Below, in pieces: positions 45,381 through 60,971 of a DNA stretch of 64,000 nt. This stretch comes from Candidatus Neomarinimicrobiota bacterium (lineage in GTDB: Bacteria; Fidelibacterota; UBA2242; B5-G15), in assembly GCA_017656425.1 (NCBI GenBank), contig JACDNV010000005.1, positions 62,001 to 126,000 of the forward strand, read 5' to 3'. Each line of letters starts with the position of its first letter. The first letter of the stretch is position 1. Both the position numbers and the translations under genes were made by a program. The notes beneath the pieces are model-generated. The model was not told the origin of the DNA and did not search any database. It saw nothing but the letters and a program-made list of their open reading frames with translations.

Positions 45381-47327
45381 TTATTTTAACAAGATCATCT
45401 TTTTTGTTATCGTCTGGTTTCCTATATATAGTTTGTAAAAATAAATACCGTTATTGAAGGCTGATGCGTCTAAGGTTATTGAATGTTTACCTGTATTGTA
45501 ATATTTATTGTTTATTAAAGAAGCGACTTCGACTCCTTTTATATTGAATATTTTCAGTGATACTTTTGAAGGCTGTTTTAATGTAAAAGGTATTATAGTA
45601 TTTGAGTTAAAGGGGTTTGGATAATTTTGAAAAAGTTGGAATCCATTGTTAATTGTGGATGGATCACATTTTCCTATATCGTTTCCCTCACTTGCCTTAA
45701 TCAATATATACTGAACTGAGCGAGGAGGTAGTTCAACTTTTATTTCATCAGAGGCAGGATATGCGAAAGCAGGAATCTCTTCTAAATTTTCGATAGGTCC
45801 CCAATATGATCCAGTAGGCCCGTATCCATTTACAAATACATGTTGGGAGTATTCACCTTCATCAGCTTTTCCTGTTAGTGAATAGACATAGTAAAGATTG
45901 CCAACTGAACGTGAATCTATCATTATCTTTGCTGTTAAATTAATTGTTGATTTATTGACTATTACAATTCCTATTTCACCATCTCTAAATGTTGATGCAT
46001 ATGCTAATACGTTTTTATTGTTGGAATTTGTTTTTAGAGCGTGATCACCGGTGAATTTTTTTAGATAATAAATATAAAAGAAATCAGGTCTGGGGTTCCA
46101 TAACGGATATGATGGATTGTCGTGGTAGTAAAACATACCGTCAGTATCCCAGTTTGCAACCAGCCAACGGCATGACATTCCATAACCATATTTTATTAAT
46201 TCACAGAATACTATTACTGCCTGTATACCATTAATTATTGAAATCTTAGCACTATCGTTACTGCCATCCATACTACGCATATTCCACTCGGTAAGAGCAA
46301 TCGGTTTTGGCACTGCGCCTTTATCATTTATATCTTTGTATATAAAATTTATCATATCTTTGACTGTTTTAGATGCTGCATCAAGAAGCTTTTGAGCTGT
46401 GGAATTATCATTTCCAAAGTAATTATGAATTACATAAAAATCTGCAGCATCTCCTACTTCCCTGAAAAAACCTTCATTCCAGTCTCTTTCAGCAACATTC
46501 CAGCTATTTGTAGCATCATAGTGAATTATCTGTCCTCCAATGTAAATTTTATTTCCTAATTCTACAGCGGCAGCGCGCATCGAATCAGCAAAGATCCTGA
46601 AGTGTTTTCCGTATAGGGAACCATTTATTATTTCTGGTTGACCATCTTTATTTAAATTAGTATCTATTTGCCAGCCTGCTTCCCATGGTCCTGCATTTTC
46701 ATTGCCAATTTCCCAGAATTTTGTTCTTCCATCATCATAGCGTACCCACTCTGCGGCGAGATGCGCAGCTTTTGCTACTGGATTCTCGCCTAGTCCATAG
46801 CGAGCATAACCATAGTTGACTGTAATTAGTCCTTCTATATCAAGATCCCATCTCATATTGTAATAGGTATCTACGTTTGTAGGTGACCATTCGCTTGTTC
46901 CATTTCCAGTCTGGGGATATAAATTAATCGGTTGTCCATTTTTTGTACCATCTGGAATAGTGTTTGGTATGTCATCAGGTATGCCATTCCAGAAGAAAAT
47001 ATCGGACCAGCTTCCTCCGGGATAGCGTAAGATTGTTACTTCGAGTTTTTCAAGATAATCCATAATAGTTGGATTATAAATTTTATTTCCAACCCAGGCA
47101 GCAATTGCGTTTCCAAATATATATTTTGAAATTTTTCCTAATGTATCCTTTGAAAAAACAGTTATCTCAACATTTGCTTCTTCGGTTGGTGGTGAAGCAT
47201 CTATTGATATCGGGATAGTAGCTTTTTTAGGTTTGAAATCCTCTAGAAAACAATTGGGAAATGTATCGCTAAAGATTTGAGATGAGAAGATAGCTAAAAA
47301 AAGAGCGGTTTTTAATTTTCTAGTCAT
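45381..47327 (-). CDS. Secreted clan GH-A glycoside hydrolase (GH51-like) with T9SS tail
   Basis: The 648-residue protein has a signal peptide (TALFLAIFSSQIFSD), a (beta/alpha)8 catalytic domain, a beta domain (about 430-550) and a type A sorting tail (LFQNYPNPFNSNTIIPFTL ... NNGIYFYKLYIG ... KKMILLK). Catalytic landmarks are RYPGGSWSDIFFWNG near residue 100, the acid/base Glu in KFWEIGNENAGPWEAGW near 200 and the nucleophile in IALTEWNM near 330. The GNE.xGPW and TEWN patterns are closest to GH51 alpha-L-arabinofuranosidases, but related families (GH39, GH44, agarases) share them, so the substrate is uncertain. It should be displayed on the cell surface. Confidence 0.75.
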   Translation of the reverse strand: MTRKLKTALFLAIFSSQIFSDTFPNCFLEDFKPKKATIPISIDASPPTEEANVEITVFSKDTLGKISKYIFGNAIAAWVGNKIYNPTIMDYLEKLEVTILRYPGGSWSDIFFWNGIPDDIPNTIPDGTKNGQPINLYPQTGNGTSEWSPTNVDTYYNMRWDLDIEGLITVNYGYARYGLGENPVAKAAHLAAEWVRYDDGRTKFWEIGNENAGPWEAGWQIDTNLNKDGQPEIINGSLYGKHFRIFADSMRAAAVELGNKIYIGGQIIHYDATNSWNVAERDWNEGFFREVGDAADFYVIHNYFGNDNSTAQKLLDAASKTVKDMINFIYKDINDKGAVPKPIALTEWNMRSMDGSNDSAKISIINGIQAVIVFCELIKYGYGMSCRWLVANWDTDGMFYYHDNPSYPLWNPRPDFFYIYYLKKFTGDHALKTNSNNKNVLAYASTFRDGEIGIVIVNKSTINLTAKIMIDSRSVGNLYYVYSLTGKADEGEYSQHVFVNGYGPTGSYWGPIENLEEIPAFAYPASDEIKVELPPRSVQYILIKASEGNDIGKCDPSTINNGFQLFQNYPNPFNSNTIIPFTLKQPSKVSLKIFNIKGVEVASLINNKYYNTGKHSITLDASAFNNGIYFYKLYIGNQTITKKMILLK

Positions 47328-47389
47328 AATTTATAGTCCTATGATTTGACACAGTTTGTTTAGTAAATTGTAAAAATAGGAAAACACTT

Positions 47390-48595
47390 TTATTTTGACC
47401 CCTTATTCATTCCAATATCAATTCTGTACATAGTCCATTCTTCTTCTAGATCGTTGTCACCGCGAATAAGATAAATATAAGACTGTGTGCCCCAGGCAAA
47501 ATATTTACAATAGGATGGAACTATGCCAAGGTAGAAAAAGTCCATAGTCTGCGTGTTGAAATCGTATACTAATAATGGATTTTCTGCACTCACGCCGATA
47601 AATAGCCTACCATCTTCGCTAAAATAGAAACTATTTATCTGATCTATATCTGTAAAGTATTGGTCTGTAAAGTTAGTCAAATTCAGTACCAGTTCTTTAT
47701 CACCTACATTGCCCTTGCTATCTATAGAATGACGCCATATTGCAAATTCAGGATTATTCTCATCTGGCTCATTACAAATAACATTAACATATACATAGCC
47801 GTTGTAAACTCTTATTCCGATAATCTCATCCTTAATATAGTAATCAGTATAAATTGGATTTTTATCCGGTGTAACTACCACTAGCCCTGATCTGCGTCCA
47901 CCAGTGACTAGGTAACCGTGGCTGGTAAAGTCTCCGTATTTAACAACTTTGCCGGATTTTAACTTTATCCATTGTGTCATTTCTTCTGTTTGTAAATTGA
48001 GGACATCTATTGCCCGATTATTCTCAAATAGATATAAGTTATTATCGAATCCAATAGTAATATCGTAAATAATACGATTCGCTGTACCAATAATCGTTTT
48101 ATCTCCAGAGGATGTAATTTTATATATATTTATTTTCTTTTCAACTACGTAAATATTTTCATCGTCGTCTACTGTTACCGCATTTAGTTGTTTGTTTTCA
48201 AGAAAATTGCCATATGGTTCAATTACTTTATGTATTTTATATGGACTATATTTTGCCACCACCATGGCGCTATCACATACAACTTTTACAACGCAAGAAT
48301 CTTTACTTATGGCTGGTCTGCGAACTACTATCGAATCATTAGATGCAGATACCACGTTGGCTTTAACATTGTCAAAATAAACGGATACTTTGCCAACGAA
48401 ATTTGACCCAAATATTTTTATATAATTACAACCTGGAGTAGCTTCCTCTGGTGGGTATATTTTAACAATTGAGGGGATTGGTAATTCGGGATAATCTTTA
48501 TACCATAATGGTTGTGTTACATCATATTCGCACTTGATAAACATTAATAGCATTAAATAAAAAGTTAATTTTATTAATATGTGTTTGATTTTCAT
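47390..48595 (-). CDS. IPT/TIG-domain surface lipoprotein with beta-propeller
   Basis: The 401-residue protein has a lipoprotein signal ending at Cys22 (LTFYLMLLMFIKC followed by EYDVTQP). Residues about 40-125 form an IPT/TIG Ig-like domain (IVKIYPPEEATPGCNYIKIFGSNF, quoted in part), and the rest is a beta-propeller-like repeat (LNAVTVDDDENIYVVEK, DITIGFDNNLYLFE, GRLFIGVS). IPT domains next to TonB receptors in carbohydrate loci are usual in SusE/SusF/SGBP glycan-binding lipoproteins, so a surface glycan-binding role is likely by context. It sits between the PorV-like and glycosidase genes. Confidence 0.72.
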   Translation of the reverse strand: MKIKHILIKLTFYLMLLMFIKCEYDVTQPLWYKDYPELPIPSIVKIYPPEEATPGCNYIKIFGSNFVGKVSVYFDNVKANVVSASNDSIVVRRPAISKDSCVVKVVCDSAMVVAKYSPYKIHKVIEPYGNFLENKQLNAVTVDDDENIYVVEKKINIYKITSSGDKTIIGTANRIIYDITIGFDNNLYLFENNRAIDVLNLQTEEMTQWIKLKSGKVVKYGDFTSHGYLVTGGRRSGLVVVTPDKNPIYTDYYIKDEIIGIRVYNGYVYVNVICNEPDENNPEFAIWRHSIDSKGNVGDKELVLNLTNFTDQYFTDIDQINSFYFSEDGRLFIGVSAENPLLVYDFNTQTMDFFYLGIVPSYCKYFAWGTQSYIYLIRGDNDLEEEWTMYRIDIGMNKGSK

Positions 48596-48622
48596 GATCT
48601 TTCTCTCCCTCTCTGTATTCTA

Positions 48623-49642
48623 TTAAAATGATATTCTTACAGTTATTCGCTTAACACTATTAAATACGCCATATGGGACGTATGCATAATCAATAGCATA
48701 TCTAAAACGAGAAATTCCAACTCCAAAAGAAAAATCGCTTTCATCACTGTTTGTAATATACCCTCCTCTTAAATAGAGAGTATTAAATATTTCCCACTCT
48801 AAACCTACTTTAAGTTGTTCTGGGCGTGATCGATAATGACTGGCATCTATACTTATATAAACAGCCTGGTCTTGTGGTTTATTATTTAACCATTCCAGTA
48901 TATCCATTGACACACCAAGATTGAAGACTAATGGTAACTGAAACAATTCCTGAACATATTTGATTTCTTTTGAAAAATTTCTAACAGACATTCCGAATAC
49001 AATGCCCTTAAAACCTGTTCTATATTGTGTCCCGAAATCAAAGGATAGGGGTGTTAAAACATTTTCTACCACTACAGCAGTAGTATCCGGAATTTTTGAA
49101 ATTTTGGGTATTACACTTTTACCTAGATCTTGTTTCACATAACGAATTTGACCACCGACGCTGAACCATTCTGTTAGCTTTTTTGCATAACCTACTCCAA
49201 TAGCATTGGCAGATAGATGAAAAATACCCGTATCATCGTATCCAGAAGGAATATTTTTATTTACCCTTGTTCCATAGAATTCTCCATAATTCACATTCTG
49301 GTAACTGAAACCTATGACACCAAATCTTCCTTTTGCAGGGGAGATTGCCAAGGAAAAAGTATTATGTACTATATCTGCGATCCATTGATTGTGGCTTGCT
49401 GTTATATCAATGAAACTTGTTAATCTCGCCATTCCAGCTGGGTTGAAAAATAAGGAGCTTGAACCGGTTTCCAGACTCGTTACAGCATCAGCCATAGCTG
49501 CAGCACGAGCATCTGATACGACTGATAGAAATTCGAAACCTGCCTGTGCCAGTTTGACATTTTTTGCGTTTAACATACTAATGCAAATTAGTAGTGCGAT
49601 TATTGTTTTTATAACATTAATTGAGTAATTAATTACTTTCAT
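48623..49642 (-). CDS. PorV/PorQ-family outer-membrane barrel
   Basis: The 339-residue protein has a signal peptide (INVIKTIIALLICISMLNA) and the PorV hallmark near the N-terminus: AGFEFLSVVSDARAAAMADAVTSLE followed by SSLFFNPAGMARL (quoted in pieces), then a 14-strand-type barrel. PorV shuttles T9SS substrates from the translocon to the attachment complex in Bacteroidota. Finding it inside the operon, between surface proteins, suggests a dedicated partner for the T9SS-tailed enzymes here. A strong AAGGAGG ribosome site precedes the ATG. Confidence 0.85.
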   Translation of the reverse strand: MKVINYSINVIKTIIALLICISMLNAKNVKLAQAGFEFLSVVSDARAAAMADAVTSLETGSSSLFFNPAGMARLTSFIDITASHNQWIADIVHNTFSLAISPAKGRFGVIGFSYQNVNYGEFYGTRVNKNIPSGYDDTGIFHLSANAIGVGYAKKLTEWFSVGGQIRYVKQDLGKSVIPKISKIPDTTAVVVENVLTPLSFDFGTQYRTGFKGIVFGMSVRNFSKEIKYVQELFQLPLVFNLGVSMDILEWLNNKPQDQAVYISIDASHYRSRPEQLKVGLEWEIFNTLYLRGGYITNSDESDFSFGVGISRFRYAIDYAYVPYGVFNSVKRITVRISF

Positions 49643-49655
49643 TATTCAATCCTCC

Positions 49656-51917
49656 TTATCTGATGACTACAAATTTGCGAAATACCGACTCGCCTTTTTT
49701 GAACATCAAATCTCCTGGCTCAAAAATTATATCACCCTTTTTTATTTCTAATTCTCCAGTTTTGGGATTGTAATAGTCACGACTTGCCACAATAGTTTCT
49801 GTAGCATATATATCTTCTGGGACTTCAACGTAGAGAATATAGATTCCACTCACAATGATCTGGCCTGAAGATGTCATAGAATCCCATAGTTCGTCACCTG
49901 TTCCATCATCGTGGTACTTTTCCCATATTAAATCACCTCTCTCTGTAAAAATTTTGAGTTTGCAAATAGGTGGTAATTCATAGAAAGCGATGCGGTCATA
50001 TTGATAATTTTCACCAAACTGCCACATCCGTGCACGAATATCATAGGGATTAGGTACTACTCTAACATGTTCAATTAGATTTCCAGGAGGTCTCCCTAAA
50101 TGTGCTGGGACAGTTGTTAGGGTCCAAAATAGGCTGCTATATAAAGGTTTGCCATTGTTTTCAAGACCATCGCTTTTTGTTTGGATATAATAGTAATAAT
50201 CATTTCCACGAGCTGCACTTGTATCGTTGAATTCATGTACGTAATTAGATTTGTCACATTCAAAGATTTTAGTGTAGACAGTTTTGTAGTGCTTTACATT
50301 TCCTTCACTCCGATAAATGACGTATCCATCGAAATGAGGATGAGTAGTAGCATTGTCACTCCAGGTTAATCGAATTTTATTGCCTCCAGATTTAACGGTA
50401 AATTCATTTGGTGGAGGAGGTGGTTGAGGAATATTGTATTCTGATCTGTAATTTTCAACTGCTTTTCTTAAAACTTTCATTATAGAATCCACCCCGGTTT
50501 CACACCATGCTCTCTTGTAGGCATTGTGAGGTGCATAGCCCCATGGATTATTCGATGTAGCAGGACTTCCATCAGGCATGTCCAATTCGGGTTTATTTTC
50601 CATGTCTTTAAAATAAGCAAACCAATTTGCCCCTACTTCCCTGCACTTTTCCCAACTAATTCCGTTAACGCCTTCCGCGAAAATAATTTTTATACTATCA
50701 CCAGGGCTCAGGGTATATGGTCCAAAGCCCCATCCCTGTGAACTACTCCCTGTTGTGTTCGTGTTTCTGTATACACTTCCTGACGTCCAGTCCTCTACAT
50801 AGCCGTTATGCCCTACGTTTTTAAAAACTTCTTCATCCTGGCTTGGAAGCCTTCCTTCAGTCATTATGTTCCAGCGTTGTTGCATAAAAGTTTCATCAAA
50901 CTGGCTAACAGAAGCTTCCATTGGTGCACCATCACTTCCAACATATGCGTCAGTTGCGGGCTGATTCGGGTCATCGACACTGGGATTGTCAGGATCGGGT
51001 GCAAAAAGAACTACAGCTCCCATATATTTTGCAGATCCTAACACCCCTGTTTCTAGATGATCTGGACAACCCCAGTCTTCCTCGGGAGTGAGCGGATGAT
51101 CGTATGAATTTGTTGGTCCATAGTATGCATAGAATCCTCTCAATCCTTCTTCAGAACCAGTGAATGTGTGTATTAAAGTGCTGGTTCCCCATTCTGAAGC
51201 AAAACTACCCCAGGTTGAACCCCATCCTGATGAAGTTATCCCGGCAAAAGCCGGTCTCCAAACGAAATAAATCCAGAAATCGTTTAGTGTCTGAGAATAT
51301 ACATCACCTTCTGCACTGTATATGCCTGTATTTTTAAATGTGTACTCATAAATAAAGTAATCATCATGTTCAGGATTAGTGAAACTCATAATTTTTCGTC
51401 TTATTGTTACGCCCATCGAAGTGTTTACTTCGTTAATAATCATACGGTCGCATGGAAGATTGGAGTCATAACCATCCACCTGGTCGTAAAGATGGTTCGT
51501 ATTTCCAATCTGGTCGTCTACGACTACTGTTGGAGCTTTAAATCGTCCTATAACTTTGATATATTGAGGAAAGATCATGGTTAATAGGTTATCTGATATA
51601 CGTGGTCCGATCCCAACAACTTTAACAGATTTTTGTCTTCTTTCAATTGGATCATAAAAATTTCTAGCACCAATCCAGAGCCCCTTTTGCCTCATAGTAT
51701 GTTGGTTTGTTCCATATTGAGTGGGCCATGTTAGAAAGTTTATGTTTGAGTAAAATAGCTCTGGTTCACACCCATAATCAATAAAACAACACTGAGTTTC
51801 TCCGTAGATTAACCATCGAATTTCCTGTGCGTAATTATGTGGGATGAGGAATAAAAATAACGTGTTCAGCATAAAATAGAGGAGAAATGATTTCATTTTT
51901 TTAATTTGTTTATTCAT
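49656..51917 (-). CDS. Large exported protein with fibronectin type III domain, function unknown
   Basis: The 753-residue protein has a signal peptide (SFLLYFMLNTLFLFLIPHNYAQ) and a long N-terminal part (to about 510) of unrecognised fold, rich in Trp, Tyr and Gly, with DYFIYEYTFKNTG and GPYTLSPGDSIKIIFAEGV. After a Pro-rich linker (PQPPPPPNEF) comes an Fn3 domain (about 515-610: KIRLTWSDNATTHPHFDGYVIYRS) and a FlgD-Ig-like end (VRVVPNPYDIRARM ... ISGIYILYVEVP). It lacks the KKMILLK-type T9SS ending. It takes the position that SusD holds after SusC in Bacteroidota loci, but I see no SusD-like TPR helices or lipobox, so a different surface partner of the TonB receptor is inferred. Confidence 0.6.
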   Translation of the reverse strand: MNKQIKKMKSFLLYFMLNTLFLFLIPHNYAQEIRWLIYGETQCCFIDYGCEPELFYSNINFLTWPTQYGTNQHTMRQKGLWIGARNFYDPIERRQKSVKVVGIGPRISDNLLTMIFPQYIKVIGRFKAPTVVVDDQIGNTNHLYDQVDGYDSNLPCDRMIINEVNTSMGVTIRRKIMSFTNPEHDDYFIYEYTFKNTGIYSAEGDVYSQTLNDFWIYFVWRPAFAGITSSGWGSTWGSFASEWGTSTLIHTFTGSEEGLRGFYAYYGPTNSYDHPLTPEEDWGCPDHLETGVLGSAKYMGAVVLFAPDPDNPSVDDPNQPATDAYVGSDGAPMEASVSQFDETFMQQRWNIMTEGRLPSQDEEVFKNVGHNGYVEDWTSGSVYRNTNTTGSSSQGWGFGPYTLSPGDSIKIIFAEGVNGISWEKCREVGANWFAYFKDMENKPELDMPDGSPATSNNPWGYAPHNAYKRAWCETGVDSIMKVLRKAVENYRSEYNIPQPPPPPNEFTVKSGGNKIRLTWSDNATTHPHFDGYVIYRSEGNVKHYKTVYTKIFECDKSNYVHEFNDTSAARGNDYYYYIQTKSDGLENNGKPLYSSLFWTLTTVPAHLGRPPGNLIEHVRVVPNPYDIRARMWQFGENYQYDRIAFYELPPICKLKIFTERGDLIWEKYHDDGTGDELWDSMTSSGQIIVSGIYILYVEVPEDIYATETIVASRDYYNPKTGELEIKKGDIIFEPGDLMFKKGESVFRKFVVIR

Positions 51918-51945
51918 AGTCTCTACCTCATTTTTTTAACTAATA

Positions 51946-54900
51946 TTAAAAAGAGATTCTGATGCCAAGGGTGACCCTTCTTGGATTTAGGAACCACCAT
52001 GTAGATGGTCCGGGATTATAAATGTATGCTTTATTTTCCAATATCCAGTCGAGTTTACTTTTTTCGACTTCTTGCCAATGTCCATCTACTATTTCCCAGT
52101 ATTTCCCGGTAGTACCCTCATAGTAAATAGGAACGGTATTATCAGGTGGTTGAGTTCCCTCAATTACAGCTCGATATTCGATTGGTTGCCAGGGTATTCC
52201 TGGTCTGCGATAATCACCGAACTTATCATTCCCTGGGATATTATCATACGCTTCACTCTTGGGTAAATGTAGGGATTGGCGATAAAGTTGGTTGCCTGTG
52301 TCGCGCAGTCGCATTTGGTTAAAAAGATTTGATATATCACAAAATAGATGAATCTTTATAGATTTTAAATTTAATGTTTTACTAACTCGTAAAGTACCAT
52401 CAAAGTAATCAACATATTGAACATTATTTACAACTCCGGAAGCGCCTTTAGGATTATAAGTTGTCCAGCCACCTTCGCTCCAGTTTAATAGGAGTGTTAC
52501 CATAAATTCACCGAGTGGATGGGAATTCATTAAATTGGGTCCAAAATCTTCAGGTGTGAATAAACTTAAATTTGCCCTTGCAAAGGGAGTTGGGATTGAT
52601 CGTTGCTGGTAGAAATTTTCTGTTTCCTCATTATATAGTTTCTGGCGAGCTGGATCTTCATAAAACCTCTCAGGACCAAAATGTCCACTGGAAGCCACCT
52701 GATATGTGTAATTTATCCAGCCTCTGAACCAGCGACCGGTGTTCTTTCTTATTGTAAGTTCAAATCCTCTTATATCTCGATATCCATTGCTCGTAGTTAC
52801 TATATAATTATCACCACTTATTGATTCATAGGTGGTTACATTCTGCTGATCAGATATGTCTTTATAGTAAGCAGCAAGCTGAATTAAAATTGAGTTGAAT
52901 ATTAGATGGTCGTAACCAAGTTCATATGCAATAGTTTTTGCTAAAGTAAGATTCGGATTACCAATAGCAGATAATGCGCTTGTAGAGCTACGTTGTATCC
53001 TGAATAAAGTCTCATATTGGGGTATCTGTTTGAAATGACCATAATTGAAAAATAATTTGGAGTTTACTGTAATGGGATGCGAAATACCTAGTCGAGGGCT
53101 TAGTTGCCACTGAGGTTTGGATTTAACCATTTCAAATTCGTAATCATCTTTATATTTAGCGTATTGAGATGAGATAAAGTAAGGATTATACGCATTTTTC
53201 TCTAAGTCCCACCAATCAGTTCTTGAGTGACTATAATCCAGTCTTAATCCGACATTCATAATAAAACCCTGTGTTTCTAGTTTATCCTGAATATATAAAG
53301 CAGCTCTAATGGGGAAATTATGCATCTGCACACGATTAGCGTAGGTTTGACCTTTACTCTGCATTTGAATAAAGCCATAGTCCATATTCAAGTCGTTATA
53401 CACAAATTCGAATCCAAACTTCATCAGGTTATTAAAATTGATCTGACTTGTAAAATCTCCTTTGATAGTTGTTGCTTTAACTTTTGAAAAATCTCGAGCT
53501 AAAGATGCCTGTATTCCATCTTTTATTTCGGGAGTTACTCCGACAATTTCATAGGGCCAATAACCAAAGGGGTATTCGTCAACCCAATAGCCGGGTAATA
53601 TTTCATGTTTCTTTGTTGTATCACGCAGTGACGTAGGATTAGTGTCATATTCTCTGTAAAAATGGTCTACAGAAATTTCATAATATGTTCTAGGGCTTAG
53701 TTGTTGGGTTAATTTCATGGAAAATGAACGGTGTCCTATATTTGCCCTTGACCACGCCCAATCACTGAACGTGTTAAACATTTGATAACCACCGGTACCT
53801 GCTGCTATTTCATGTGGCCAGTGGGGGTAAAAACCATAATTCCAGTTTTCAGCAAGTGTTCTAATGTGTCCTATGAGGCTTGAAAATCGCAGTTTGGTAT
53901 TTTTTGCTATATCAGATGTTAACTGAAATGTCCAATCCCAATCGATATAATCTGGATCTGCCTGAGGCCACAGCAATACATCTCTATGTCTGCGGTAAGA
54001 AGTAAAAAAGCGTAAATCTCCAAGCTTTTTAGATATCAATGGTACAGGTCCTCCAAAACCAGCGTCTATGTCATAATCAGCTAAATTATTTGGTTGCTTT
54101 TTTCTTGTTTCCCACATGAAAACTCTCTGTGCTCCACGAGGTGTCAAATCATTTGTTGGATCATCATCTGCAAGTAATTGGTCCGAAACAGCATTCCAAC
54201 CAACAAATGATGGATATTGCATCTGCATATATTTATCCCAGTAGGTTCTTATTCCATCCCCATTCAGGTCTTCAAAAGGTTCACCTTCATCCCATTTTCC
54301 GTTGCCATTTAGATCTGTATAGGGTTCCCCCTGTGTTGTCCCAGTCCAGCAAACAGCATCGTCAAGATATGGTCGCATCCAGTATGAATTAGGGTCATGA
54401 ACATCTGGTATTCCATCTGTACGAAAATATTTTGGAGCTGGTGGAACTATTTTGATTTCAATATTGCCGCTATATCTATCTCTATCACCTTCTACAGTTA
54501 CAACATTTATAATTCCAGATTGAACTTGTCCATATTCGGCATTAAAACCGCCTCTTTGGATTGATATTTCTTTTACTGCACTTAATGGAACTTTTGTGAC
54601 GGGTTCATTATTTCGAGGATCACGTAGTGCTATACCGTCTAATAGAAATAATATTTCCTGTGCATAGCCTCCTCTAATTGACATTCCACTTATGCCTGCT
54701 TCGAGACTAATTATATCATTGACATTTGAGACAGGAAGTACACTTATATCACTTGATGGTACCGCAACTGTGCTCGTAGCTACATCTGGCTTAATAATTT
54801 TGCGTTCAGCTACAACCACGATTTCTTCGCCTGGCAGTACCTCAGGTTCAAGAACAAAATCAATCCTCGTTGTCTGATCAATATGTACTATAACATCTGT

Positions 54901-55170
54901 TACTTTTACCTCTTTATATCCTATAACCGAAACCCTTACAGTATAATTACCAGGCGGTGCGTAGAGTACTGTAAATTGCCCATTCTGATCAGTAGCTGAA
55001 CCTAAGGTTGTACCCTCAACGATTATGTTTGCTCCTACAATTGGTGCACCTGTCTTTTGGTCTGTAACAGTTCCAGTGATTTTCCCGGTTGTTCCTGCGA
55101 CTATTAATTGCATAAAAACGAGTGCTATTATTAAAAGGAGTAGAATAAGTTTTAACTTGGTTCTAAGCAC
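51946..55170 (-). CDS. TonB-dependent receptor with carboxypeptidase-regulatory-like domain (SusC/CirA-type)
   Basis: A TTG at 55245 opens the frame, but the GTG at 55170 is preceded by GAAGGGGG at good spacing and starts a clean signal (TKLKLILLLLIIALVFMQLIVAG). The mature protein of about 1045 residues has a CarboxypepD_reg-like domain (KITGTVTDQKTGAPIVGANI, about 30-110), a plug (VNDIISLEAGISGMSIRGG; LLDGIALRDPRNN; GGFNAEYGQVQSGIINVVT), and a 22-strand barrel. Between plug and barrel lies a calcium-loop-like insert (DLNGNGKWDEGEPFEDLNGDG, about residues 286-306). It heads the six-gene - strand operon and probably imports the oligosaccharide released by the surface enzymes. Confidence 0.88.
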   Translation of the reverse strand: MLRTKLKLILLLLIIALVFMQLIVAGTTGKITGTVTDQKTGAPIVGANIIVEGTTLGSATDQNGQFTVLYAPPGNYTVRVSVIGYKEVKVTDVIVHIDQTTRIDFVLEPEVLPGEEIVVVAERKIIKPDVATSTVAVPSSDISVLPVSNVNDIISLEAGISGMSIRGGYAQEILFLLDGIALRDPRNNEPVTKVPLSAVKEISIQRGGFNAEYGQVQSGIINVVTVEGDRDRYSGNIEIKIVPPAPKYFRTDGIPDVHDPNSYWMRPYLDDAVCWTGTTQGEPYTDLNGNGKWDEGEPFEDLNGDGIRTYWDKYMQMQYPSFVGWNAVSDQLLADDDPTNDLTPRGAQRVFMWETRKKQPNNLADYDIDAGFGGPVPLISKKLGDLRFFTSYRRHRDVLLWPQADPDYIDWDWTFQLTSDIAKNTKLRFSSLIGHIRTLAENWNYGFYPHWPHEIAAGTGGYQMFNTFSDWAWSRANIGHRSFSMKLTQQLSPRTYYEISVDHFYREYDTNPTSLRDTTKKHEILPGYWVDEYPFGYWPYEIVGVTPEIKDGIQASLARDFSKVKATTIKGDFTSQINFNNLMKFGFEFVYNDLNMDYGFIQMQSKGQTYANRVQMHNFPIRAALYIQDKLETQGFIMNVGLRLDYSHSRTDWWDLEKNAYNPYFISSQYAKYKDDYEFEMVKSKPQWQLSPRLGISHPITVNSKLFFNYGHFKQIPQYETLFRIQRSSTSALSAIGNPNLTLAKTIAYELGYDHLIFNSILIQLAAYYKDISDQQNVTTYESISGDNYIVTTSNGYRDIRGFELTIRKNTGRWFRGWINYTYQVASSGHFGPERFYEDPARQKLYNEETENFYQQRSIPTPFARANLSLFTPEDFGPNLMNSHPLGEFMVTLLLNWSEGGWTTYNPKGASGVVNNVQYVDYFDGTLRVSKTLNLKSIKIHLFCDISNLFNQMRLRDTGNQLYRQSLHLPKSEAYDNIPGNDKFGDYRRPGIPWQPIEYRAVIEGTQPPDNTVPIYYEGTTGKYWEIVDGHWQEVEKSKLDWILENKAYIYNPGPSTWWFLNPRRVTLGIRISF

Positions 55171-55267
55171 TTTAGACCCCCTTCTATTAGATTTATGGCT
55201 TTTATCTTTTGATTCTTTAGTGGCATCTCGAAAAAATGTTTGCAAAAATGTCTATATTGATTGCATA

Positions 55268-55496: not shown

Positions 55497-56591
55497 GTGA
55501 AAAACTTAAAAATTTTTATAACAGTTGTTTTAGGTATATCATTTTACCTCTGCTCACAGATTTTTGGTCCTGATGAAGATAAAGAAAAAGAAAAGGTAAT
55601 TTTGGAAATTTACTCCCCTTCCGATACGACGCAAATGATTGATAAAGATAGTGTTTCCATAGGAGACACTTTTAAGGTTAACTACACTGAATATTTATAT
55701 TATTTCGTACTCGCAAAAAGTGATGGTTATTTCTCTCAACTTTTTAAATGCAGGAGCGGGGATTATATTGTTTTAAATCTTATACCCGTAGATAATTCAA
55801 AGTATTCAGGTACTATTATATTAAAAAGAGGAATTATTCCAGTGAATGTATTGGCAAACCAATGGGTTAAAATAGAAAAGAATGGGGAAATTGTAAGAGA
55901 ATTTAAAACTGATTCGTTAGGTCACTTTTCAACGGATAAGCTGGAATTCGGTTTATATAAATTTATAGGGGATGGAAATTTTACAAAATTCTCTGAAACA
56001 GTTATAGTCGATAAATATTACCAGGATATATTTATTTCGAATTGGGTTCAGTTTCGGAAACCAAATATATACATATATCCAGAAACGGATACCAATATTG
56101 AAATCTATTTAGATTTTCCTAGAGGTGGTTATATAACGGAGTCATTACCACCATATGATGATGGATGGAAGATAAATGTATCGAGCGAAGGTAAGATAAA
56201 TGGGACTTATGAGTGCCTTTATTATGAATTCAATGCTCCAGATTTATGTCAATATGACTATGGTTGGGTTGTTGAAAGGGAGAATTTAGAAAAATTTTTC
56301 AGACAGAATATGGAAGCCTATGGATTTAATGATAAAGAAATTGATGATTTTATAGGTTATTGGGTTCCGAAGTTGAATAAATTTAAAAGGTATATAATAT
56401 TTCCACAGCTGAATGAGGATATATCCAGGGTTATTCAAATTAGGTGTAGCCGAGAAATAGATACCCTTTTCAGGTTATACTATGCCATAATGGGTACAAA
56501 TTTCATCGGAGTAGAAATCACTCCGCCTGAAATTTATCCATTTGAAAGGAATGGCTTTACAATTGTTGAATGGGGTGTTATATTAAAGTGA
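55497..56591 (+). CDS. Lipoprotein of the uncharacterised KPxIYxYP family
   Basis: The GTG at 55497 is preceded by GGAGTGGAGG and starts a lipoprotein signal (IFITVVLGISFYLC, Cys18) in a product of 364 residues. From about residue 190 it matches a widespread but uncharacterised family: FRKPNIYIYPETDTNIEIYL, DDGWKINVSSEGKINGTYECLYYE, a GWVVERENLEKFF segment, and DFIGYWVPKLNKFKRYIIFPQL. The N-terminal 170 residues are an added beta-rich region. The stop overlaps the trehalase start (GTGA), so the two are translationally coupled, which is the best clue to a role in trehalose use or sensing. No enzyme activity can be predicted. Confidence 0.65.
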   Translation: MKNLKIFITVVLGISFYLCSQIFGPDEDKEKEKVILEIYSPSDTTQMIDKDSVSIGDTFKVNYTEYLYYFVLAKSDGYFSQLFKCRSGDYIVLNLIPVDNSKYSGTIILKRGIIPVNVLANQWVKIEKNGEIVREFKTDSLGHFSTDKLEFGLYKFIGDGNFTKFSETVIVDKYYQDIFISNWVQFRKPNIYIYPETDTNIEIYLDFPRGGYITESLPPYDDGWKINVSSEGKINGTYECLYYEFNAPDLCQYDYGWVVERENLEKFFRQNMEAYGFNDKEIDDFIGYWVPKLNKFKRYIIFPQLNEDISRVIQIRCSREIDTLFRLYYAIMGTNFIGVEITPPEIYPFERNGFTIVEWGVILK

Positions 56592-58606
56592 AATTAGTAC
56601 GGAGTTCGTTTTTAAAGTTATTTAATATTCCTTTTTATCCTTTAATTATCTTCCTTCTTCTTGCCAATCCATCGGCTGGTAGAAATACAAAAGACTGTTT
56701 TTATGTTGTAGTAGATGTAAAATACAATATACAAAGATTGCTTGAAGAAGAAGATGTTGATAAAGATAAGAAAATTACTATTAATGACCATTATGCTGGA
56801 GATGTGAGGGGGGATAAAAAATTCTGGTTGATTGATACAGCCGGTAATGAATATGAAGTTAGCGGGACTTATTATTTATCCAATCTTTTGCAGGAACTAA
56901 AACTACAAGAGAATGATGGTAAAAACATTGCCCCTCTTTCTTTTGATAAAATTTTTGAAAATCCGTCAGATAGGATATCAAGACTGATAAGTGAGGTCTA
57001 CTGGAATGGTCTGACAAGAAAGATAACCGATGAGACAATTAAAGATCTTATAATTGATACAAAAATTAAAACTATCAGTGGAGTAAATTATATTTACGTT
57101 CCTCGTAACGATACATTGGCTTTCAATTATTATAGTGGAATTGCCACAAAGCGTCCCGAGTTGAAAATCAAAGTTGTTTACTTACCTGAGGTTATTACGC
57201 CAGACTACGTACGCAATCTCGAAGGTTGTCATGGATTTCTGACTCTGGCATTGAGAAAAGGTGAAAACGGTGAGATTGAAGGGGTGCCCTATGTTGTACC
57301 TGGAGGCAGATTTAACGAGATGTATGGATGGGATAGCTATTTTATAGTGCTCGGTCTTCTTGTTGATGGGAAAGTTGAGCTTGCAAAATCGATAGTGGAT
57401 AATTTTGTATATGAGATAAAACATTATGGTAAGATATTAAATGCCAATAGAACTTATTATCTTACTCGGTCCCAGCCGCCGTTCCTTACATCTATGGCTC
57501 TGGCAGTATATGATAGTTTACCAGAAAATTCTAAGACAAAGGAATGGCTTAAAAATGTGATCGATGCGGCTATTATGGAGTACTATAATGTATGGATGGG
57601 TGAAAAGAGATTGACATGGACTGGGTTAAGTCGATATTATGGAGAGGGTATAGGACAGCCACCGGAAGTAGAGCCTGGACATTTTGATGAAGTGTATAGG
57701 AAGTTTGCGAAAAAGTATAATATGAATTTAGAAAGTTTTAAGGAAGCTTATAGAAGCGGGAAAATTGTTGATAGGGAGCTAGGTGAGTTTTTTATCCATG
57801 ATAGAAGTATGCGTGAATCAGGGCACGATAAGACATACAGATGGAATGATAAATGCGCTGATTTTGTAACAGTTGATTTAAACTCATTGTTATATAAAAT
57901 GGAGGTAGATATTGCGTGGGCAATTAAGAATGTTTTCAACGATTCTTTTGTTGTAAGTGGTAAGCTTGAAACAAGCAGGGATTGGTTAGAAAGGGCTAAA
58001 AAAAGGAAAAACTTAATAAATAAATATTTATGGGATAGGGAATACGGACTATTTTTTGATTATAATTTTATTGAAAGAAAAAGAAAGATGTATATATCAG
58101 CGACAATATTTTACCCATTATGGGCGGGTCTGGCTACGAAAGAACAAGCAAAGTCTATTGTAGAAAATGTCCTGCCCCAACTGGAAATGCCAGGTGGAAT
58201 AGCAGCTTCTAATGAAGAATCAAGAGGGAAGGTTTCAGATGAACGTCCCCAGAGGCAATGGGATTATCCATTTGGATGGGCACCACATCAAATGATTGCA
58301 TGGATGGGATTGAGAAATTATGGATTTAAATCAGAAGTAGTCAGATTGGTATACCGCTGGCTTTATACAATTACTAGGAATGCTGTCGATTACAATGGAA
58401 CGGTTACAGAAAAGTATGATGTGGTCAAAAGGTCTCATCAAGTTTTTGTCGAATATGGTAATATTGGAACTAAATTTAGCTATATAACAAAAGAAGGATT
58501 TGGCTGGACAAATGCCAGCTATCAGATAGGTGTCAAAATGTTACCTGAAGATTTAATTGATAAGTTAAATAGACTAATCCCGCCCGAGTGGATTTGGGGA
58601 CAATGA
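56588..58606 (+). CDS. Exported GH37 trehalase of the fungal neutral-trehalase type
   Basis: The 672-residue enzyme hydrolyses trehalose to two glucose. The GTG at 56588 overlaps the previous stop and begins a signal-like segment (FYPLIIFLLLANPSAG). Residues about 40-110 match the calcium-binding domain of fungal neutral trehalases: LLEEEDVDKDKKITINDH, then SGTYYLSNLLQEL. The GH37 core has both signatures, VPGGRFNEMYGWDSYF and QWDYPFGWAPHQM, plus TRSQPPFLT, the acid region ESGHDKTYRW and TEKYDV ... VEYGNIG. Text such as PPEVEPGHFDE, HDRSMRESGHDKTYR and VDLNSLLYKME is much closer to fungal NTH-type enzymes than to E. coli TreA (ESGWDFSSRW). Location is probably periplasmic. Confidence 0.9.
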   Translation: MKLVRSSFLKLFNIPFYPLIIFLLLANPSAGRNTKDCFYVVVDVKYNIQRLLEEEDVDKDKKITINDHYAGDVRGDKKFWLIDTAGNEYEVSGTYYLSNLLQELKLQENDGKNIAPLSFDKIFENPSDRISRLISEVYWNGLTRKITDETIKDLIIDTKIKTISGVNYIYVPRNDTLAFNYYSGIATKRPELKIKVVYLPEVITPDYVRNLEGCHGFLTLALRKGENGEIEGVPYVVPGGRFNEMYGWDSYFIVLGLLVDGKVELAKSIVDNFVYEIKHYGKILNANRTYYLTRSQPPFLTSMALAVYDSLPENSKTKEWLKNVIDAAIMEYYNVWMGEKRLTWTGLSRYYGEGIGQPPEVEPGHFDEVYRKFAKKYNMNLESFKEAYRSGKIVDRELGEFFIHDRSMRESGHDKTYRWNDKCADFVTVDLNSLLYKMEVDIAWAIKNVFNDSFVVSGKLETSRDWLERAKKRKNLINKYLWDREYGLFFDYNFIERKRKMYISATIFYPLWAGLATKEQAKSIVENVLPQLEMPGGIAASNEESRGKVSDERPQRQWDYPFGWAPHQMIAWMGLRNYGFKSEVVRLVYRWLYTITRNAVDYNGTVTEKYDVVKRSHQVFVEYGNIGTKFSYITKEGFGWTNASYQIGVKMLPEDLIDKLNRLIPPEWIWGQ

Positions 58607-60143: not shown

Positions 60144-60632
60144 ATGAGTGAAATAATATATAATCCAATTGGTATAGTTCACTCTCCATTCAAAGAACCA
60201 AAAGGAGTGCCCATTCAGTCTGGTGTTGCAAAGGGTTTAAAAGGGAGGGTTGAAGTATTTCTCGAGTTTGTAGATGGGTTAGATAGTCTGGAAGGATTTT
60301 CTCATATTATTTTGATTTACCATTTTCATTTATCTAAAAAATTTTCCTTAAAGGTAAAGCCTTTTATGGATGATGAGGAGCATGGAGTATTTTCAACACG
60401 TGCACCAAGTAGACCAAACTCAATTGGATTATCAATTGTGAGACTTTTAAAGATTGAAGGGAATATTCTTCATATTCAGGGTGTTGATATTGTCGATGGG
60501 ACACCTCTTTTAGATATAAAGCCCTATGTGCCGGAATTTGATTCAAGAAAAGTAGAAAAAATAGGTTGGCTCGAAGGGAAAGTAGATAAGCTATCCCAGA
60601 TGAAAGATGATGGAAGATTTAAAATGGGGTAG
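60144..60632 (+). CDS. trmO: TrmO-like tRNA t6A37 methyltransferase (TsaA/YaeB family)
   Basis: The 162-residue protein has the TsaA-like landmarks: YNPIGIVHSPFKEPKGVPIQ at the N-terminus (partly quoted), LEGFSHIILIYHFHLS near residue 50, and the SAM-binding HGVFSTRAPSRPNSIGLSIVRLL near 80, with DIVDGTPLLDIKPYVPEFD near 120. TrmO uses SAM to methylate N6-threonylcarbamoyladenosine at tRNA position 37. TGAGGTAA lies before the ATG at 60144; the frame is open six codons further. Its 3' end overlaps the converging GIY-YIG gene by 42 bases. Two tRNA genes are close by. Confidence 0.92.
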   Translation: MSEIIYNPIGIVHSPFKEPKGVPIQSGVAKGLKGRVEVFLEFVDGLDSLEGFSHIILIYHFHLSKKFSLKVKPFMDDEEHGVFSTRAPSRPNSIGLSIVRLLKIEGNILHIQGVDIVDGTPLLDIKPYVPEFDSRKVEKIGWLEGKVDKLSQMKDDGRFKMG

Positions 60633-60884
60633 CTTTATCTTAAGATTTTTTAATTTTTTTCTAAGCCAGATGTTTCCAACAAAACTTTTAAGATACATTT
60701 CTCTTTTAAAAGCAGAAGATCTGTTATGGTATGATTCGGTATAGATAATTTTAAATGGTCTATGAGGTTTAGTTGATCTGACTTTACCTTTATTATGTTC
60801 TTTTAATCTTTTTTCTAGGTTTGCGGTATGTCCAATATAATGATAGTTATCTTTAAGACTTTTTAAGACATAAACTTTAAACAT
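60591..60884 (-). CDS. GIY-YIG nuclease-family protein (UPF0213/YhbQ-like)
   Basis: The 97-residue protein starts at the ATG at 60884, just three bases after the tRNA-Ser 3' end; a longer frame would read through the tRNA and is rejected. It shows KVYVLKSLKDNYHYIGHT (the G-Y-x10-11-Y-I-G core), LEKRLKEHNKG, TKPHRPFKIIYTESY and AFKREMYLKSF with the conserved Arg and Glu. Stand-alone GIY-YIG proteins of this size are suspected nucleases of unknown target. No ribosome site precedes the ATG, so translation may start on a processed, nearly leaderless transcript. Confidence 0.82.
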   Translation of the reverse strand: MFKVYVLKSLKDNYHYIGHTANLEKRLKEHNKGKVRSTKPHRPFKIIYTESYHNRSSAFKREMYLKSFVGNIWLRKKLKNLKIKLPHFKSSIIFHLG

Positions 60885-60887
60885 AAG

Positions 60888-60971
60888 CGGAGGCGGAGGG
60901 ACTCGAACCCCCAAGTCCTTACGGACGGCGGTTTTCAAGACCGCTGCCTTACCAATTAGGTCTACGCCTCC
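60888..60971 (-). tRNA. tRNA-Ser (anticodon UGA)
   Basis: On the - strand the 84-base gene folds into acceptor GGAGGCG/CGCCTCC, a D-arm, anticodon stem GCGGT/ACCGC with loop CTTGAAA (anticodon TGA), a long variable arm (CGTCCGTAAGGACTTGG region) typical of class II tRNA-Ser, and a T-arm with GGTTCGAGTCC. CCA is not encoded. Confidence 0.95.

Follow-up and report, generated by a model that had tools for sequence, protein, structure and literature searches.

The trehalase gene and its surroundings

The window, i.e., the whole stretch of 64,000 nucleotides that was analysed, carries on its plus strand an open frame (56588..58606) for a GH37 trehalase of the yeast neutral (Nth1) type, which is read from a GTG start and has 672 aa. 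An alternative start, ATG 56570, lies 18 bases 5′ of GTG 56588 and would give a protein of 678 aa; GTG 56588 is the likelier start, since GGGGTG is present about 10 bases before it and its GTGA overlaps the stop codon of the upstream ORF. This upstream gene (55497..56591, plus strand, also from GTG) encodes an exported protein of 364 aa of no known family, in which a KPNIYIYPETDTNIEIYLDF stretch is contained and for which no match was found in Pfam or NCBIfam. Because of a 4-base overlap between its stop and the start of the trehalase, the two genes are probably co-transcribed. Downstream of the trehalase are a ClC channel and TrmO, which give no hint of a trehalose locus, and no trehalose import or catabolic gene was found at the locus besides the trehalase. 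The end of TrmO is overlapped by a 115-aa ORF (60591-60938, minus strand), which by eye has the look of a small GIY-YIG type nuclease. In addition, a series of genes for exported proteins lies on the minus strand (45381-55245). Among their products are a Por_Secre_tail protein, a CarboxypepD_reg/TonB-plug receptor and, below the threshold, a PorV-like protein, which is a hint that the host genome encodes a type IX-like secretion system.

The genome of the host, most likely a member of Fidelibacterota/Marinimicrobia, contains one trehalase. Elsewhere in it (L178:1457-4882, contig 1 of G000), a fused TPS-TPP (NCBIfam PRK14501, 976 bits) adjoins a TreT-like glycosyltransferase, so that two routes of trehalose synthesis lie side by side.

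The catalytic trehalase domain PF01204 covers residues 124-651 (56957..58540, plus strand) and was matched with 496 bits against a cut-off of 21 (hmmscan, 672-aa protein); with the catalytic Asp and Glu also present, the protein belongs to GH37. By homology, the catalytic acid is Asp414 in RESGHD (57827..57829, plus strand) and the catalytic base is Glu608 in TEKYDV (58409..58411, plus strand), both of which are invariant in 31 homologues. We take them to be the equivalents of Asp312 (acid) and Glu496 (base) of E. coli TreA, with the roles drawn from general knowledge of GH37. The substrate-site motifs RFNEMYGWDSYF, RSQPPF, QWDYPFGW and EKYDV are kept, and the motifs ESGHDKTYRW and LLYKME, which had been put forward as shared with fungal NTH1-like trehalases, are both found in the protein.

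Calcium loop, signal peptide and likeness to Nth1

The EF-hand-like calcium loop DVDKDKKITIND corresponds to residues 56-67 (56753..56788, plus strand), and the match to PF07492 to residues 48-68, N-terminal to the catalytic domain. The match is marginal in hmmscan (21.7 bits, E 1.7e-4, just under the cut-off of 25), and in the genome-wide search it reaches 26.1 bits, above the same cut-off; in the relatives it ranges from 17 to 48 bits, with one protein having no match and two Flavobacteriaceae homologues reaching 46-48 bits. In EF-hand loops, positions 1, 3, 5 and 12 are the acidic ligand positions, and in DVDKDKKITIND all four are Asp. The loop aligns column for column with residues 114-125 of Nth1 (DTDKNYQITIED), with D56, D58, D60, K62 and D67 opposite D114, D116, N118, Q120 and D125, respectively. 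Moreover, D56, D60, I63, T64 and D67 are invariant in the 31 bacterial homologues, and D58 is conserved in at least 90%. Since the loop is both conserved across the homologues and aligned with that of Nth1, it is characteristic of the family rather than a coincidental likeness. The earlier note had proposed an N-terminal calcium loop as in the fungal enzymes, to be sought with PF07492; the alignment with D114-D125 bears this out, and the profile search found a family-level match in the bacterial proteins.

As for the fold, the AlphaFold2 model (31 homologues) has a mean pLDDT of 89.6 and a pTM of 0.89, and is poor mainly in the region of the signal peptide and at residues 620-630. In the Foldseek comparison with the PDB, the top match is 5n6n_C (Nth1 bound to 14-3-3), with a TM of 0.89 over 691 columns, followed by the other Nth1 structures and then by TreA structures at much lower scores; at the level of the overall fold of this predicted model, the calcium domain is packed as in Nth1. 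The sequence search gives the same order: phmmer against the PDB matched yeast Nth1 with 622 bits over residues 39-666, and E. coli TreA with 161 bits over the catalytic core only. The NCBIfam TreA/TreF models score 188-210 bits against cut-offs of 512-941, so the protein is not a member of TreA/TreF. The bit scores, the tree described below and the fold all agree with the earlier claim of an Nth1-type enzyme unlike TreA, and together they rule out an ordinary TreA with a chance loop.

The Nth1 of S. cerevisiae (PDB 5n6n, 5jta, 5nis, 5m4a) and the window protein thus have in common the EF-hand-like calcium domain joined to a GH37 domain, the lid insertion and the catalytic residues, with an identity of 45-49% in structural alignments (about 49% over the aligned catalytic core). 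However, Nth1 is cytosolic and begins with a tail of about 95 residues, whose PKA/Cdk1 sites recruit 14-3-3, whereas in the window protein this place is taken by a signal peptide. Periplasmic TreA of E. coli (PDB 2jf4, 2jg0) shares the GH37 fold, export and the acid/base residues, but it is without the calcium domain, is only about 27% identical to the window protein in structural alignment, and falls in a separate clade.

The signal peptide extends over residues 1 to about 31 (56588..56680, plus strand), ending in LIIFLLLANPSAG and followed by R; it was identified by direct reading, by a hydropathy scan over the homologues and from the model. By inspection and hydropathy, the N-terminus VKLVRSSFLKLFNIPFYPLIIFLLLANPSAG starts with basic residues, continues with a long hydrophobic core and has small residues in the cleavage region, in agreement with what had been claimed. 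In the AlphaFold model, residues 1-13 and 26-35 are of low confidence and residues 17-25 form a helix. Signal peptides are seen in this protein and in about 30 relatives. Judged from these features, the trehalase is apparently exported and probably periplasmic, which differs from the cytosolic location of the fungal 14-3-3-regulated trehalase.

In yeast, the 14-3-3 sites Ser60 and Ser83 precede the calcium domain, in an N-terminal tail (PMC10847541), activation requires both of them in phosphorylated form (PMC7806596), and a review sets the control of Nth1 apart from that of prokaryotic trehalases (PMC10847541). In the window protein, 55 residues precede the loop, of which about 31 are signal peptide and the rest a short linker; the phosphorylated tail with 14-3-3 sites is absent, which rules out direct inheritance of 14-3-3 control. 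The earlier reading of the domain in terms of 14-3-3 therefore does not transfer, for the sites lie in precisely the tail that is missing here.

The bacterial family and the origin of the fungal enzyme

When one genome per species was scanned, at least 561 related stretches were found. The best 80 of these (at least 561) relatives are 48-62% identical, and nearly all of them have the same calcium loop. The record labels of these 80 include Neomarinimicrobiota, Ignavibacteriota, Kryptoniota, Flavobacteriaceae and other Bacteroidota, and further Planctomycetota, Bdellovibrionota, Elusimicrobiota, Riflebacteria, Deferribacterota and Deltaproteobacteria; as the phylum labels come from metagenome-assembled genomes, those resting on a single bin may be wrong. 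When genomes were drawn evenly per phylum, the centre genome counted, and a match of more than 580 bits was taken as Nth1-type, such matches were present in 15 of 248 genomes in the phylum of L048, 2 of 199 in that of L049 and 4 of 192 in that of L056. Around the window's own genome, 3 of 41 genomes have an Nth1-type enzyme, namely its own, one of the same family (70%) and one of the same order (63%). With orthologues at these two levels, contamination of the assembly is unlikely. Among phages, plasmids and viral contigs there was no Nth1-type relative that would point to such an origin, only TreA/TreF-type matches and a Granulicella enzyme. That is to say, the bacterial Nth1-type enzyme pointed out earlier is real, but it is no oddity: the bacterial family around it is large and widespread.

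The family occurs in two forms, one with a signal peptide or lipoprotein signal and the other beginning no more than a few residues from the calcium domain. The exported form mostly stands alone, whereas the cytosolic form lies beside an MFS sugar carrier: among members with readable flanks, an MFS carrier gene (identified by PF07690) adjoins on the same strand in 22 of 22 cytosolic and 2 of 31 exported members, where the count covers L056, L108 and L110 and leaves out L045. In a larger set with cruder localisation labels, the figures are 42 of 46 and 1 of 32. One gene further upstream are a TonB receptor (L091), a GH97 enzyme (L066) and a GH65 enzyme (L031). A tidy reading would be that only the cytosolic form, and not the exported one, depends on an importer. 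Part of the contrast is due to phylogeny; of five independent phylogenetic contrasts, four agree and none is opposed (p 0.125), which is too few for significance. These cytosolic trehalases of Flavobacteriaceae and Melioribacteraceae (L066, L091, L031) resemble the window protein as two-domain enzymes, with PF07492 at up to 48 bits, and differ from it in having no signal peptide and in adjoining the MFS carrier. Since several Bacteroidota members, mostly of Flavobacteriaceae, are lipoprotein-like (L059, L110, L053, L084, L086, L095, L099), export was apparently regained in Bacteroidota on one or more occasions.

For the phylogeny, one tree of the catalytic domain was built from 82 GH37 proteins and two further trees from full-length sequences, in which the fungi are represented by yeast Nth1 alone, as one long branch. 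In the 82-protein tree, the bacterial Nth1-type enzymes, yeast Nth1 and the window sequence form one clade (100/99) far from TreA/TreF; the window sequence is located deep in the bacterial Nth1-type clade and does not group inside the TreA clade. The closest outgroups, the L117-type enzymes and that of Granulicella, are bacterial, exported and without PF07492. Among them, the exported Bacteroidota trehalases without the calcium domain (L117-L121, L183-L195) share the signal peptide and catalytic core with the window protein (core identity 45-48% for L117-L121), but they lack PF07492 (L118 and L119 tested) and are a sister group rather than members. This uncharacterised subfamily would make a good outgroup.

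In all three trees, yeast Nth1 is nested inside the bacteria (99/99, 98/91 and 85/89). In the full-length trees it is placed with L053/L108 (91/84), or with L053/L108, L180/L182 and L049 (80/84), that is, in a mostly cytosolic branch of Bacteroidota/Melioribacteraceae. The candidate donors of the L108/L180 kind have no signal peptide, and L108 lies beside an MFS carrier. The earlier note had left a choice between a bacterial origin and a transfer from fungi. On account of the exported bacterial outgroups without the calcium domain and of the nesting of yeast Nth1, a bacterial origin of the fungal neutral trehalase is favoured, though not shown, as a placement of yeast outside the bacterial clade is not rejected by AU tests (p 0.0695, 0.145 and 0.303). 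The chances appear about even that the fungal enzyme came from a bacterium, likeliest of the cytosolic branch of Bacteroidota/Ignavibacteriota, with the calcium domain being at first the metal brace of an exported bacterial enzyme and 14-3-3 control being added in fungi.

The main alternative is that bacteria and the fungal stem already had the family in common at an early time, or that it passed from fungi to bacteria, the eukaryotic enzyme gaining signal peptides. This would suit the patchy presence of the gene in several bacterial lineages and the trees in which the bacterial forms are held together without yeast, which are not rejected (p-AU 0.07 and 0.30). However, the next relatives are bacterial and without the calcium domain, the bacteria span some ten phyla with basal lineages outside yeast in all three trees, and long-branch attraction would draw yeast outwards, not inwards; we regard early sharing or a fungal donor as rather unlikely.

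Proposed function and significance

By homology, the enzyme would use the inverting GH37 mechanism to hydrolyse trehalose into two glucose molecules, Asp414 acting as the acid and Glu608 as the base. In the calcium-rich periplasm, the EF-hand-like loop would most likely keep one Ca2+ bound at all times and brace the N-terminal domain against the catalytic domain's flexible lid, filling in the bacterium the structural role that calcium plus 14-3-3 fill in yeast. With Ca2+ held permanently and the lid propped, the bacterial enzyme may be unswitched, i.e., always on. Exported TreA recycles leaked trehalose or uses trehalose from outside (PMC10969515). The window enzyme may likewise scavenge outside trehalose or recycle what has leaked, as suggested by the fact that the host itself makes trehalose (TPS-TPP, TreT-like). 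On balance, we consider it probable that this is an exported Nth1-type trehalase, stabilised by calcium and unswitched, which scavenges or recycles trehalose, and that its calcium domain is bacterial and the fungal tail later.

It might be objected that the loop is a folding relic on which calcium has no effect, in an otherwise ordinary exported trehalase; to our knowledge, bacteria have no 14-3-3, and the sister enzymes of the L117 group are exported without any calcium domain. However, the ligand positions are invariant or nearly so although the homologues have diverged to 49-68% overall identity, which argues for selection on metal binding and makes a relic improbable. It is very doubtful that the main substrate is another alpha-glucoside (e.g., glucosylglycerate, a trehalose analogue), as a weak MGH1-like GH domain match (47.8 bits) and the want of trehalose import or catabolic genes nearby might suggest, given the near 49% identity with Nth1 over the aligned catalytic core and the conserved substrate-site motifs.

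The enzyme class is already known and many such bacterial sequences are already in databases; in the open-access literature, no description was found of a bacterial, exported Nth1-type version with an intact calcium loop and without 14-3-3. If the bacterial rooting is right, the calcium domain would be a bacterial invention older than 14-3-3 control, the latter being an addition; fungi would most likely have obtained such an enzyme from a bacterium and then added the phosphorylated tail. Yeast Nth1 serves as a model for how 14-3-3 and calcium activate an enzyme, and the bacterial family, with the calcium domain and without the 14-3-3 tail, is a natural "before" state of it, which opens the questions of what the loop does alone, whether the enzyme is always active and where the fungal enzyme came from.
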